Of a stretch of DNA of 64,000 nt, positions 13,939-17,655 are shown piece by piece. The position numbers and the translations under genes are program-made. The notes under the pieces are model-generated. The model made no database searches, was not told the DNA's origin, and was given only the letters and a program-made list of their open reading frames with translations. This stretch comes from Glutamicibacter creatinolyticus (GTDB lineage Bacteria > Actinomycetota > Actinomycetes > Actinomycetales > Micrococcaceae): the NCBI RefSeq assembly GCF_006094275.1, contig NZ_CP034412.1, positions 1,426,001 through 1,490,000 on the forward strand, written 5' to 3'. Position 1 is the first letter of the stretch. Every line of letters starts with the position of its first letter.

Positions 13939-15567
13939 GTGGGAATTACCGAATTCGAAAACTCGCTGATCGAGCTAATCCGGGCCAGGAATCCGTTGCT
14001 GTACGTCGAGACCTTCGAAGAGGCGCGGGTCGTCGGCGCGGTGGAGAACATCGCAACCAACCCGAAGCTTAAACGCGACCGCCAGGTAGTCAGCTACACA
14101 CTGAGCTCCGGGCTGCACCGGTTGGGTGAGCAGGGCAAACCCACCGACCCGGTCGCGGCCATCAATGAGGCTGCGAAATACCAAGAGCCCACCATCTTCG
14201 TGTTCTACGACCTGCACCACTTCATCTCGGCTTCCGGAGCCGGTTCCCAGGTCGATCCGAATGTGGTGCGTGCGGTGCTGGATGCGGCACGGTCCTTCCG
14301 CAGTGGCGCCGTGGCCCACACCATGATCCTCGTGTCCCCGGGTATGACCCTGCCGGTGGATCTGCAAAAGGAAGTCACGGTCCTGGAACTGCCGCTGCCG
14401 AACCGTGAGGAAATCGCCGCTATCCTCGATGACATAATTCAAGCCAACTCCGCACAGATCAGCGTCGAGCTCACCGCCGATGACCGTGACCGACTGCTGC
14501 AGGCGGCGCAGGGGCTCACATTGGGCGAGGCGGAGAACGCCTTTGCCCGAGCCATCGCCAATGATGCGCGGCTGGAACCCGGCGATATCGCACTGGTGCT
14601 GGAGGAAAAGCGCCAGACCATCAGGAAGTCCGGCCTGCTCGAATTCGTGACCGTCAGCGAGGACATCGATGACATCGGCGGTCTTCAGAACCTGAAAACC
14701 TGGCTGCGCAAGCGCAACGGGTCCTGGCTTCCCAGCGCCGCCGGCTGGGGCATTCCGGCCCCCAAGGGCGTATTGATCACCGGGGTGCCTGGCTGTGGCA
14801 AGTCATTGACGGCAAAATGCATGGCCTCACTGTGGGGCCTGCCCCTGCTGCGCATGGACATCGGCAAGGTCTTCTCTGGTCTCGTTGGCTCCAGCGAGCA
14901 GAACATGCGCGACACCCTGAGGCTGGCCGAGGCGGTTGCCCCATCGATCCTGTGGATCGATGAGATTGAAAAGGGCTTTGGCAGCAACAGCGGGGGAGAC
15001 TCCGGAACCAGCCAACGCGTTTTCGGCACATTTCTGACCTGGCTGCAGGAAAAGCAGGCCCCGGTCTTCGTGGTGGCTACCGCCAACAAGATCAACGCCC
15101 TGCCACCCGAGCTGCTGCGCAAGGGGCGCTTCGACGAGATCTTCTTCGTTGACTTGCCTACCTATGCCGAGCGTGAGGAAATCTGGCGGATTCAGCTCGA
15201 ACACCGGCTCGCTAGCGCGCCCGAGGCCGCTGGAGAAGTCTCAGCCGAAGACCCGTCACTCATGGAGCGCCTGGCCCAGGCCAGCAACGGTTTCTCGGGC
15301 GCCGAAATCGCCGAGGGCGTCGTCAGCGCGTGCTTCGATGCGTACCATGAACGCCAACCACTGCGCGAGGCGGACTTGCTACGGGCAATCAGCAACACGG
15401 TTCCGCTGGCCACCATGCAAGCCGAACAGATCCGGGCGGTGCGTGACTGGGCCACCCAGCGCGCGGTGGCAGCCACCGCAGCCGAGGACGAGGAAGAATT
15501 TGCGGCCAGCACCTCCGGGAGCGCGGACGTGACCAGTTGGCGTGGCGGACGCCGAATCGACTTCTAG
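13939..15567 (+). CDS. Ycf46-type AAA family ATPase
   Basis: Soluble AAA ATPase of 542 residues from the GTG at 13939, chosen because GGGAG lies 7 bases upstream and [19 protein letters not shown] matches Ycf46-type N-termini; the open frame continues 48 codons further up without a good site. The N-terminal third (1-220) resembles a degenerate ATPase fold, with a Walker-B-like strand [11 protein letters not shown] but no P-loop. The C-terminal AAA module has Walker A GVPGCGKS (282-289), Walker B WIDE (339-342), sensor-1 N383 and arginine-finger candidate R397. Ycf46 is encoded in red algal plastids and cyanobacteria, where a role in carbon limitation has been proposed; here the role is unknown. 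It leads a five-gene operon, 11 bases upstream of the next start. Confidence 0.88.
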
Positions 15568-15578
15568 GGGGAGCACCG

Positions 15579-16010
15579 ATGAGTTTGGAAGTTTTCCTGA
15601 TCCCCGCCGGGATCATGGCGGTCAAGGCCGCGCAGGAACTACATAATGCGAAAAACAGGCAGTACGAGCAGGCTTTTGAGTCCACCCGGATTCAGGACCA
15701 GCAGTTGCTCATTGAGGGGCTGGACGCACTAGGGATCACCGAGCACCAGGTGCAAGGTGAGCTCGTCACCGCGCAGACCAAGGCCGGGGAAGCGGTGTTC
15801 GTCCGCGAGTCGGACCGTTACCTCGCACAGATTAGAAACGAGCAGGAGGCCACCGGAGCACTGGTGCAACAGCTGCACTCGGCGGTTGGTCAGATCCTGC
15901 AACGCAGGAACGTGGAGAAAGTCCAGGCCCAGGCACGCACCATGGGAATGCGCCTCATGGAGCAGCGCGCGGTGGACGGCAGCGTCCAGCTGGTGTTCGA
16001 GGAGGCATAG
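15579..16010 (+). CDS. DUF1257/Ycf35-like small protein
   Basis: Protein of 143 residues starting at the ATG at 15579, which has AGGGGGA about 6 bases upstream. The C-terminal part, LQRRNVEKVQAQARTMGM then AVDGSVQLVFEEA, resembles the end of DUF1257 (Ycf35) proteins, where an alpha helix is followed by a strand of the form DGSIRLVV. The N-terminus (SLEVFLIPAGIMAVKAAQ) is hydrophobic and unlike typical DUF1257, so this is a divergent member at best. DUF1257, DUF2997 and Ycf46 genes are neighbours in other bacteria, which supports the call. It lies 11 bases after the ATPase and its stop touches the next start. Biochemical function unknown. Confidence 0.6.
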   Translation: MSLEVFLIPAGIMAVKAAQELHNAKNRQYEQAFESTRIQDQQLLIEGLDALGITEHQVQGELVTAQTKAGEAVFVRESDRYLAQIRNEQEATGALVQQLHSAVGQILQRRNVEKVQAQARTMGMRLMEQRAVDGSVQLVFEEA

Positions 16011-16238
16011 ATGTCAAAGAAATTCATCGTGACCATTGGCGCGGACGGCTTGATTTCCGCCGAGACCAGCGACATTACCGGGGCCGCCTGCCTGGATGAG
16101 TTGGCCACCATCGAAGCGTTGGTTCCCGACGCACGGGTGCTCGACTCCCGATTGACGGGAGACTACTACCGCGCCGCCGTGCAGGAACAGCACCTGCCGG
16201 TGCAGAATACCGTCAAGGATCAGCAGGGACAGGCATGA
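16011..16238 (+). CDS. DUF2997-like small protein
   Basis: Protein of 75 residues. The pattern of a strand (KFIVTIGADGLISAET), then GAACLDELATIEAL, then a tail with YYRAAV closely follows DUF2997 proteins, which typically read IxIxPDGxVxxxxxGxxGxxCxxxxxxLE followed by TxEYY. Its ATG comes directly after the stop of the preceding gene, and its last four bases overlap the next start (ATGA). DUF2997 has no known activity; the small fold and constant pairing with DUF1257 suggest a partner or substrate of the ATPase, which is inference. Confidence 0.72.
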   Translation: MSKKFIVTIGADGLISAETSDITGAACLDELATIEALVPDARVLDSRLTGDYYRAAVQEQHLPVQNTVKDQQGQA

Positions 16239-17044
16239 ACGTTTCGTTCCGGCAGTTGATGTGGGCGCTGCTGAGCAGTGTAGGAGTGCTCTGGCCGGCC
16301 CTGACAGTGGGACTGGGTTCCTGCGTCGTCTTCTTCTACCGCGGAGTGCGGATGCGCAACTGGCGGTGGCTCATCATCGGCGCCGTAGCGCTGGCCATGA
16401 CCATTTTCACCTTTGCGATGATGCCGGACAGCGGCATCAAGACCATCAACGGATCCTCCGTTTTCTATAACCTGGTGGTCGTCCTGATGCTCGTCAACTG
16501 GTTCGGATCCACGATTGTCGCCCTGGCACTGAACCCGCGCTGGTTGCGTTTTCTGATTGAGACTTCTCCGATGGTGCCGGCGGAGGTGCGCTCCCGCTAC
16601 GGGCAGCCGCAGCGCCAGCGGACCCAGGAACCGCTGCTGGGACAGCAACAGGACCAGCAATGGTGGACCACAACCAACACCTCGTCCACCGGGAAGGCAG
16701 CGGCACCGGCACATGGCACAAGGTCTGGCTTCTCCCACGCCGGGGCGTCTACTTCCTCTGACATCACTGCCGGGCGTCAACTCCCCGTTCGGGAGGAGTT
16801 CACGGGCAACGTGGAGGTCAACCAGGCACGGCCCGCGCAACTGCGGGCGCTGGGCCTACGGCCGTCCGACATTGATTCCATTCTTTCGGCACGCAAACGC
16901 ATTGGCTCTTTCAACAGTTTTGAGGAACTGCTGGAATCCAGCGGGGTGGCGCCGCACGTCCTGCTCCCGTTGCGCTCCAGGCTGGAATTCTCCGGCAACC
17001 CTACGCGCAGTAACCGGCGCGGCTCTCGGACCTTGGACCTGTAA
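16235..17044 (+). CDS. Membrane protein with C-terminal ComEA-type helix-hairpin-helix domain
   Basis: Protein of 269 residues. Three hydrophobic segments lie at about 10-35, 44-63 and 76-98, followed by a Gln/Ser/Thr-rich linker (about 120-185) and a C-terminal domain at about 193-252 (VEVNQARPAQLRALGL, then SFNSFEELLESSGV). That domain matches the ComEA/T2SK-type helix-hairpin-helix: VNxAxxxxLxxLxG, then FxSxxDLLxxxGI. The first hairpin is altered (GLRPSDIDS instead of GIG), so DNA binding is uncertain. It overlaps the preceding gene by 4 bases and the next by 1, so it is a fixed part of the operon. Function unknown; it may tether the ATPase complex to the membrane. Confidence 0.72.
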   Translation: MNVSFRQLMWALLSSVGVLWPALTVGLGSCVVFFYRGVRMRNWRWLIIGAVALAMTIFTFAMMPDSGIKTINGSSVFYNLVVVLMLVNWFGSTIVALALNPRWLRFLIETSPMVPAEVRSRYGQPQRQRTQEPLLGQQQDQQWWTTTNTSSTGKAAAPAHGTRSGFSHAGASTSSDITAGRQLPVREEFTGNVEVNQARPAQLRALGLRPSDIDSILSARKRIGSFNSFEELLESSGVAPHVLLPLRSRLEFSGNPTRSNRRGSRTLDL

Positions 17045-17655
17045 TGCCCAGTGCACTGAGGGTGGCCCGGGTCCTGCATGCCACCCGTGCCGAAGGCCCG
17101 CACCTGCGCAGCGCCATCTGGGTGCAGGGGTGTTCCATTCGCTGTAAGGGCTGCATCAACCCGCACCTGTTCACCGAACGCGGAGGAACACTGCGGGAAG
17201 TTGGTGACATTATTGCCGAGGCCCAACAGCATGAGGTTGAGGGCATCACTCTGATTGGAGGGGAACCCTTTGACCAGGCGGCCGCCGGAGCGGACCTGGC
17301 TGAGGCCGCCCAGGCAGCGGGGCTGGGAGTGCTCACCTTCACCGGTTACACCATGGAGTCCCTTCAGAACCGGGACCCGGACGCGGCGCGACTGATCGAC
17401 GCCACGGATCTGCTGGTGGACGGTCCCTACCGGGAGGATGAACCGGAGACAGAACGCGCGCTGATCGGTTCGGCCAATCAGCGTTTCATCCATCTCAGCT
17501 CGCGCTACGAAGACTACGACCCGGCCTGGGCACCAAACCGGGTGGATGTGAGAATCCATCCGGACGGGACAGTGGAGCTAGGTGGTTTCCTGGACAGTGA
17601 AAATCTGCGTGAGTTCTCTGCCCAAAGTGGCCTATTGCGCCGGCGGCGTTCCTAA
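17044..17655 (+). CDS. Radical SAM protein, NrdG-like (4Fe-4S single cluster)
   Basis: Protein of 203 residues with C30-X3-C34-X2-C37 in VQGCSIRCKGCINPHLF, which binds the radical SAM 4Fe-4S cluster, and the SAM-contacting GGEP at 72-75. Length and layout match anaerobic ribonucleotide reductase activase (NrdG) and related glycyl-radical activases. No nrdD or other glycyl-radical enzyme is in the window, and the gene overlaps the preceding membrane-protein gene by one base, so it more likely serves the Ycf46 operon. Target unknown. A strong terminator follows 46 bases after the stop and closes the operon. Confidence 0.85.
   Translation: MPSALRVARVLHATRAEGPHLRSAIWVQGCSIRCKGCINPHLFTERGGTLREVGDIIAEAQQHEVEGITLIGGEPFDQAAAGADLAEAAQAAGLGVLTFTGYTMESLQNRDPDAARLIDATDLLVDGPYREDEPETERALIGSANQRFIHLSSRYEDYDPAWAPNRVDVRIHPDGTVELGGFLDSENLREFSAQSGLLRRRRS

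Follow-up and report, generated by a model that had tools for sequence, protein, structure and literature searches.

The closest described relatives of the system considered here come from cyanobacteria and plastids, where the ATPase Ycf46 and the DUF1257 (Ycf35) and DUF2997 proteins are conserved and have no known biochemical role. In published reports, cyanobacteria have a DUF2997-ycf35-fed7 cluster (PMC4284462), slr0374 lies in a stress-responsive operon and cells without it have less carbonic anhydrase activity of EcaB (PMC7496141, citing Jiang 2015), slr0374/ycf46 is tied to stress and CO2 use in cyanobacteria (PMC7496141), and in red-algal plastids the presence of ycf35 and ycf46 is tied to habitat, the genes being mostly lost in freshwater species (PMC5940233). 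The passages on stress, CO2 use and habitat name no mechanism. The locus that we compare with them lies in a 64,000-nucleotide stretch of the Glutamicibacter creatinolyticus genome (contig NZ_CP034412.1, positions 1,426,001 to 1,490,000; "the window"), where five tightly packed plus-strand open reading frames (ORFs), g1 to g5, at 13939-17655 are read as one operon. This five-gene set is a real, cross-phylum, mobile-looking cassette that is divergently related to the Ycf46 set of cyanobacteria. Its ATPase (g1) and its membrane helix-hairpin-helix (HhH) protein (g4) share a short C-terminal tail, noticed here, which makes it likely, as far as sequence can tell, that the two assemble in one complex. 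We found no description of the five-gene set in the open-access literature (titles, abstract openings and passages, in places from partial listings). The features of the locus are as follows:

13939..15567, plus strand: g1, Ycf46-type AAA+ ATPase; GTG start, 542 residues, an N-terminal domain and one AAA domain (residues 278-405)
14782..14805, plus strand: Walker A motif GVPGCGKS of g1, from the sequence and invariant alignment columns
15541..15564, plus strand: C-terminal tail RGGRRIDF of g1, from the sequence and the tail comparison across loci
15579..16010, plus strand: g2, divergent DUF1257-family protein, 143 residues, by profile-profile comparison
16011..16238, plus strand: g3, DUF2997 protein, 75 residues, by Pfam match
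16089..16091, plus strand: codon of the invariant Cys27 of g3, from an alignment of 50 rows
16235..17044, plus strand: g4, membrane HhH protein with linker and C-terminal tail, 269 residues
16808..16981, plus strand: HHH_3 (ComEA-type HhH) domain of g4, residues 192-249, by Pfam
17024..17041, plus strand: C-terminal tail SRTLDL of g4, from the sequence and the tail comparison across loci
17044..17655, plus strand: g5, NrdG-like radical S-adenosylmethionine (SAM) protein, 203 residues, by Pfam, NCBIfam and alignment
17131..17154, plus strand: CxxxCxxC cluster motif of g5 (Cys30, 34 and 37), invariant in 24 aligned rows
17702..17737, plus strand: intrinsic-terminator-like hairpin with a perfect 16-bp stem, a 4-base loop and a T-rich tail

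The gap between g1 and g2 is 11 bases and that between g2 and g3 is 0, while g3 and g4 overlap by 4 bases and g4 and g5 by 1. The frame of g1 stays open upstream to 13795, and the alignment of its relatives begins at 13939. The terminator scan gives 4 sites versus 3.5 in shuffled sequences, and a stem of 16 pairs occurs only at 17702-17737. A preliminary description of this DNA had proposed a five-gene operon with small gaps and overlaps and a 16-base-stem terminator, and the ORF coordinates and the hairpin bear this out.

We next consider whether the five genes keep company elsewhere. A scan of the genomes of 84,980 species supplied the best 80 of at least 571 relatives of the ATPase (590 pattern matches), which is neither a census nor an even sample. 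Together with 9 annotated plasmid and phage records and 2 relatives from the same family they give 91 ATPase loci, the window not included; these were searched with iterated profiles within 8 kilobases (kb) on the strand of the ATPase (numbers with L or G are our own labels; L040 is a near-duplicate of L039). All of g2, g3, g4 and g5 lie beside the ATPase in 35 of the 91 loci, across five phyla. None of them is found in 21 loci, g2 alone in 14 (the cyanobacterial type), g2 with g3 in 9 and other mixtures in 12. The five families are therefore together on one strand within 8 kb more often than by chance, and the co-occurrence that the preliminary description had named as its own test holds. So does its association of Ycf46, DUF1257 and DUF2997, for which the cyanobacterial cluster is also published (PMC4284462). 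The gene order differs among loci (several melainabacterial ones, for example, place the genes for the HhH and radical SAM proteins upstream of the ATPase gene), and therefore the linkage is not just inherited order.

The ATPase tree (a quick one, LG+G4 with SH-aLRT support only, including the window and leaving out L040) places all 38 ATPases with both g4 and g5 within 42 rows that a starred branch (99) sets apart from the rest, and the g4+g5 label changes 5 times on it versus 29.5 times in shuffles. The other four rows of the 42 are L058 and L061, both near contig ends, L045 from a satellite phage, and L087, a cyanobacterial row that branches off first in the cassette clade and in which g5 is present, g3 is weak, and g2 and g4 are not found; the placement of the long branches L045 and L047 is unsure. 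Three loci lack g2 or g3 (L054, L071, L074), all near contig ends. The preliminary description had an actinobacterium adding the membrane and radical SAM genes to the set, which is not supported: the tree shows a cross-phylum five-gene cassette. No extra recurrent partner emerges, the neighbour clusters found in at least 12 of the 38 loci being other-strand or shifted frames inside the cassette genes and the smaller clusters lineage-specific (partly by eye).

The protein g1 matches Pfam AAA (PF00004) at E 1.2e-31 and phrog_8638 at E 1e-136 over residues 6-526. It is 44% identical to Treponema relatives, 40% to Geminocystis plasmid relatives and 42-45% to cyanobacterial chromosomal ATPases. The Walker A, Walker B and arginine motifs are invariant in 7 aligned ATPase rows, and the homology is full-length, including the N-terminal domain. 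Its best solved relatives by sequence are AAA domains of the CDC48/VCP and AFG2 types; the name Ycf46 comes from kinship with the cyanobacterial rows, as the libraries used hold no Ycf46 model. We thus predict that g1 is a Ycf46-type AAA+ ATPase with its catalytic motifs kept.

For g2 there is no Pfam match even at E 1, PF06868 (DUF1257) included, and no NCBIfam match. The comparison of profiles, rather than any curated cut-off, makes it a probable divergent relative of DUF1257: 14 of the 31 rows of its family alignment, canonical DUF1257 proteins included, match PF06868, and 20 cassette-type rows match 12 canonical-type rows in hhalign (96.8%, E 2e-10, 110 columns). An N-terminal hydrophobic segment is found in most cassette-type relatives and is weak in the window g2. 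The AlphaFold2 model of g2 has a mean predicted local distance difference test (pLDDT) score of 85.6, with ten-residue block means of 90-98 from residue 31 onward. Its structure searches point to no relative: the best Foldseek match has E 0.088, and the top VIA matches, BamC (Z 8.1, root-mean-square deviation 4.4 over 102) and then the METTL16 VCR and KA1 domains (Z 7.7-7.9), are rejected, being at a level that is common without true kinship. Against the PDB by sequence, the cassette-type rows have one match below 0.001, a designed NTF2-fold protein (E 3.6e-4), and the canonical rows have none. The protein g3 matches DUF2997 (PF11211; E 1.8e-9, 37.8 bits against a gathering score of 24.1), and its Gly13 and Cys27 are invariant across the 50 aligned rows. 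Its model, a beta-hairpin with two helices (pLDDT 74.8), finds no relative in a structure search (best E 0.95).

In g4, three hydrophobic segments (residues 8-26, 45-63 and 80-98) bear out the membrane anchoring proposed earlier; 26 of 27 g4 rows have at least one such segment and 20 of 27 have two or more. The HHH_3 domain (PF12836) is matched at E 6.6e-6 with 26.6 bits, 0.4 below the cut-off of 27, and in a second scan with 29.7 bits, above it. It is found in all 27 g4 rows scanned (Pfam, E 0.1), 13 of which also match T2SSK. Basic residues after segments 1 and 3 suggest, by positive-inside reasoning, that the HhH domain and the tail are in the cytosol. A locus with seven g4-type HhH genes in tandem was also seen (L060, 2296-7335), with the tail on all 7. 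The protein g5 matches Fer4_12 (4.8e-28) and PF04055 (34.5 bits), and the CxxxCxxC and the SAM-binding GGEP motifs, invariant in the 24 aligned rows, place it in the radical SAM superfamily. All five products thus fall in the families guessed in the preliminary description, g1, g3, g4 and g5 by profile searches and g2 through profile comparison only.

The ends of g1 and g4, two proteins with unrelated domains, both read (G)R-x-[ILV]-[DE]-[FLIY]-COOH after a variable linker. In the g4 alignment the C-terminal arginine is invariant and the aspartate nearly so, and the ATPase ends behave likewise. With the strict pattern R.[VILMFAY][DE][FLIYVMW] at the C-terminus, the tail is found on 49 of 53 g4 proteins (whose detection by profile may lean on the tail), 42 of 92 ATPases, none of the g2 (0/65), g3 (0/52) and g5 (0/48) proteins, and 5 of 10,245 other ORFs; at internal positions the motif has a frequency of about 0.1%. 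Within cassettes, without the duplicate L040, it is carried by 33 of 37 ATPases and 46 of 49 g4 proteins. The arginine at -5 and the acid at -2 are fixed by the pattern selection and are not independent evidence. Further inward, the 33 ATPase tails have glycine at -6 in 33, glycine at -7 in 30 and arginine at -8 in 28, and the 46 g4 tails have glycine (25) or glutamate (13) at -6. Positions -24 to -14 hold about 0.7-1.3 bits in the ATPases and 0.4-1.0 bits in g4. Since HHH_3 is in all 27 g4 rows and the AAA and HhH domains are unrelated, the shared ending is not due to common descent of the domains.

Within the same genome, a tail search limited to CGN arginine, Asp and an NTN last codon gives 15 places, 9 with a true stop. 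Those that look like gene ends are the ATPase and one long frame ending RFLDI, which we take to be GyrB by position and sequence; a third frame is open for 134 codons. The tail is absent from six other AAA proteins (L001, L002, L004-L007) of the 22 AAA matches, L008 being cut, and from one other HHH_3 protein (L175), L176 not being resolved. Further proteins with the ending were seen near relatives of the ATPase: in one cassette (L067) a membrane Mrr-type nuclease (7809-8546, GRRLDV) and a 939-residue TPR protein (4976-7792, GRAVEW), near one viral ATPase a WGR-domain protein (L183, 10136-11089), and near another two phage DUF6744 proteins, the tail being on both of those found (L212, 7830-8759 and 9971-10705). 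In a Zn-finger-like family (by eye) of L219, the strict tail is on only 1 of 5. By count such proteins are not above chance: of the other ORFs of at least 100 residues, those around cell ATPases include 1 in 934 where 0.93 are expected, and those around viral ATPases 3 in 1,102 where 1.2 are expected (p 0.12; the L183 protein is not among the ORFs picked); the Mrr, WGR and DUF6744 proteins are leads.

Combining the family assignments with the shared tail, we propose as the most likely product of the cassette a membrane-tethered remodelling complex of the AAA+ type, in which the ATPase ring and the HhH partner dock alike; we give this a probability of about 0.5. The tail would be a docking motif, by which the ring and the membrane partner bind the same kind of site. 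We retain docking as the explanation because the motif is common to two unrelated proteins and because the ATPase tail follows the AAA domain, as in proteasomal ATPases. With the HhH domain and tail of g4 predicted to be cytosolic, the machine would work at the membrane on DNA, or on something held by the HhH module. The DUF1257 and DUF2997 proteins would serve as subunits of the core or as adaptors, and either may carry the site that binds the tail. Perhaps g5 modifies a component of the complex, candidates being the invariant Cys27 of the DUF2997 protein or the tail; a component is proposed as its target, rather than a glycyl-radical enzyme, because none was found in the genome. The earlier suggestion of a membrane-linked ATPase machine with a radical-chemistry step stays a hypothesis, of which the shared tail supports the one-machine side.

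Several observations weigh against this proposal. Four cassette ATPases and three g4 proteins are outside the strict pattern: the ATPases are L053 (another ending, perhaps from a shifted frame), L054 (contig end), L074 (two residues past RIVDF) and L082 (RKLYF), and the g4 endings, which look like shifted forms, are those of L048 (RRLFD), L057 (RRVD) and L076 (RMVDMQ). The tail patterns were written after the tails had been seen. No g4 or g5 is found within 8 kb of the 14 cyanobacterial-type ATPases, and therefore the ATPase family does not need them. DNA binding by g4 is a candidate role drawn from its HhH domain. The tail, in a lenient form, is on 58 of 68 ATPases with DUF1257 or DUF2997 neighbours versus 2 of 23 without among the 91 loci, relatedness explaining much of this, and on 45 of 51 versus 1 of 11 among the 62 loci, window counted, that extend at least 4 kb to either side; on the tree, with 8-9 independent pairs, the association is not significant (median p 0.375-0.625). 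Ycf46-type ATPases were also seen in many viral contigs, some very large, with the full cassette in one of them (L178-L257; L178). Of the 80 viral loci kept, 26 have the lenient tail and 32 have DUF1257- or DUF2997-like neighbours, sought with the cell profiles and in the fetched stretch. The relation there has the opposite direction, 6 of 32 with such neighbours versus 20 of 48 without. With much of the association in cells due to relatedness and the viral loci reversed, candidates for the receptor are DUF1257, DUF2997, the ring of the ATPase or a further partner.

Where the cassette occurs bears on some of the alternatives. The cassette is rare among close relatives: an ATPase orthologue is found in 0 of 17 same-genus genomes, where the best match (E 4e-18) covers the AAA domain only, and in 2 of 18 other genomes of the family (G023, G024). 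Among 396 Actinomycetota drawn evenly, own genome included, 12 have a Ycf46-type ATPase (E 1e-40) and 3 have DUF2997, two above the cut-off, own genome counted. Ten of the 11 other ATPases are tailless, and the stretch fetched around each of them matches none of the g2, g3 and g4 profiles; one of these loci has a weak g5-profile match (E 5e-3), and the stretches of L264 and L272 end shortly after the ATPase. The remaining one (G090) has adjoining g2 and g3 and the tail RRIEL. An identical five-gene order is found on plasmids of Arthrobacter ZXY-2, Rhodococcus aetherivorans and Paenarthrobacter, the last in three records, two of which agree in their g2-g5 proteins. Two conserved genes, an acyltransferase gene and amt, flank the cassette in the window, within the rnc-mutM-smc-ftsY-ffh region. 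In the relative G007 about 190 bases and no cassette separate these two genes; the spacing is 1.1-1.8 kb in G002, G011 and G012, where other sequence fills it (a DNA-3-methyladenine glycosylase gene in G011). The base composition of the cassette is not odd (62.5% vs 62.2%) and gives no sign of recent arrival.

A variant that is compatible with the proposed complex puts the tail site on the ATPase itself, so that g4 would mimic the ATPase tail and DUF1257 and DUF2997 would take no part in binding it. The tails on 20 of 48 viral ATPases without detectable DUF1257 or DUF2997 neighbours speak for the variant, which we regard as possible; however, ATPases without g2-g5 nearby are mostly tailless (the one exception among 21 is L061, whose contig is cut), as are all 10 lone ATPases of the actinobacterial sample. 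A wider reading, which we hold to be doubtful, would make the tail a general address code of Ycf46-type machines in bacteria and large phages, for plugging in interchangeable nucleic-acid-type modules (HhH proteins, the Mrr-type nuclease, the WGR protein, the DUF6744 phage proteins), with the radical SAM protein setting or maturing the complex. If true, it would define an as yet undescribed class of machines that handle DNA, at the membrane or carried by phages. It is unlikely, in our judgement, that the tail is instead the site which g5 recognizes or modifies at the C-termini of the ATPase and g4. The two glycines before the tail arginine of the ATPases (-6 in 33/33, -7 in 30/33), the strong g5 neighbours of just that clade whose cassettes bear the tail, and the invariant radical SAM catalytic residues in the 24 aligned rows would suit such a substrate, but the glycine is not kept in g4, and related tails are on cyanobacterial and viral ATPases beside which no radical SAM gene was found.

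The cassette could also be an anti-phage or anti-plasmid defence module, with the membrane HhH protein sensing incoming DNA and the ATPase triggering a response. The patchy distribution in the genus and family (0/17, 2/18), the five plasmid records, the ATPase relative in a streptococcal satellite phage and the cassette with a tail-bearing membrane Mrr-type nuclease are in its favor, yet we think it quite improbable. The PADLOC matches of the five proteins are only AAA-type (IetA, TRIP13, mad8) and weak viperin-type, and the NCBIfam IteA match has 61.5 bits against a cut-off of 510. Moreover, 119 cassette neighbours match 30 PADLOC families versus 69 for 119 neighbours of other family ATPases (119 of 124 and 119 of 121 picked, as longest-ORF guesses in which wrong frames are possible; the counts are of families, and in the control many models match the same few proteins). 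With no PADLOC enrichment among the cassette neighbours, which include EPSP synthase, deformylase and ATP synthase genes, a defence island is unproven. As for g5, it shares the CxxxCxxC and GGEP motifs with NrdG and PFL-activase proteins, NrdG (TIGR02491) is its best NCBIfam match, and no other protein of this genome gives an NrdG-type match. A role as an ordinary NrdG or glycyl-radical activase, in an operon for anaerobic nucleotide or pyruvate metabolism, is nevertheless extremely improbable and already largely refuted: the match has 85.7 bits against a cut-off of 126.1, and no glycyl-radical partner, neither NRDD (PF13597) nor the Gly_radical family, was found in the genome by searches that were positive in 6 of 14 and 3 of 14 control genomes.

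Some relatives of the ATPase stand in other settings. The satellite phage locus (L045, MK448457.1, Streptococcus) has a nearly full-length, long-branch relative with no g4 or g5 found. In spirochaetes, contractile injection or phage-tail-like clusters hold a radical SAM protein and a Ycf46-type ATPase, with annotated VgrG and baseplate V genes in L044, and with DUF2997 and sheath- and tube-like proteins (by eye) in L117 and L124. A PilT-like ATPase lies near the ATPase-DUF1257-DUF2997 group in all five of a set of planctomycete and related loci (L095, L100, L103, L104, L116), four of which also have a zinc-ribbon membrane protein (names by eye). On a Bacillus halotolerans plasmid (L047) the ATPase, DUF1257 and DUF2997 genes are less than about 10 kb from genes for a ThiF-family and a 4Fe-4S cluster-binding protein.

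The proposed complex can be set beside known systems. With the ComEA and T2SS-K HhH proteins, g4 shares a membrane anchor and the HHH_3 domain, but it differs by its mostly multiple hydrophobic segments, its variable linker, its tail and its predicted cytosolic HhH domain. The analogy of the tail is with proteasome partners, of which several with a common C-terminal motif, HbYX (hydrophobic-Tyr-any), compete for one core. The docking tails of proteasomal ATPases follow the AAA domain, and Mpa carries its own C-terminal docking motif. To our knowledge, the cassette is present in phyla without proteasomes. Bpa is described as having an HbYX motif and competing with Mpa for the 20S ring (PMC4254994). 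The cassette tail differs in being R-x-hydrophobic-acid-hydrophobic, with RIDF at the end of the window g1 and TLDL at that of g4; position -2 is acidic in most cassette proteins (33 of 37 ATPases, 46 of 49 g4), and L082 (RKLYF) is the one among the seven tail exceptions that HbYX would cover. With a length of about six residues, the tail is a concrete handle on assembly, open to deletion or swapping. The cassette, as a compact, movable-looking unit, places Ycf46, DUF1257 and DUF2997 outside photosynthesis. Compared with the cyanobacterial set (Synechocystis slr0374; the fed7 cluster), it has a homologous ATPase, DUF1257 and DUF2997, and differs by the separate ATPase clade, by g4 and g5, which were not found within 8 kb of the cyanobacterial-type ATPases, and by a g2 that mostly has an N-terminal hydrophobic segment and that in the window has no direct Pfam match. 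The 14 cyanobacterial-type ATPases end in QR[ML]EF (12), KRMEF (one) and KRLEWS (one), a tail related to that of the cassette, and if the docking is true the tail would lead to the complex's core and open the cyanobacterial proteins, too, to functional tests.

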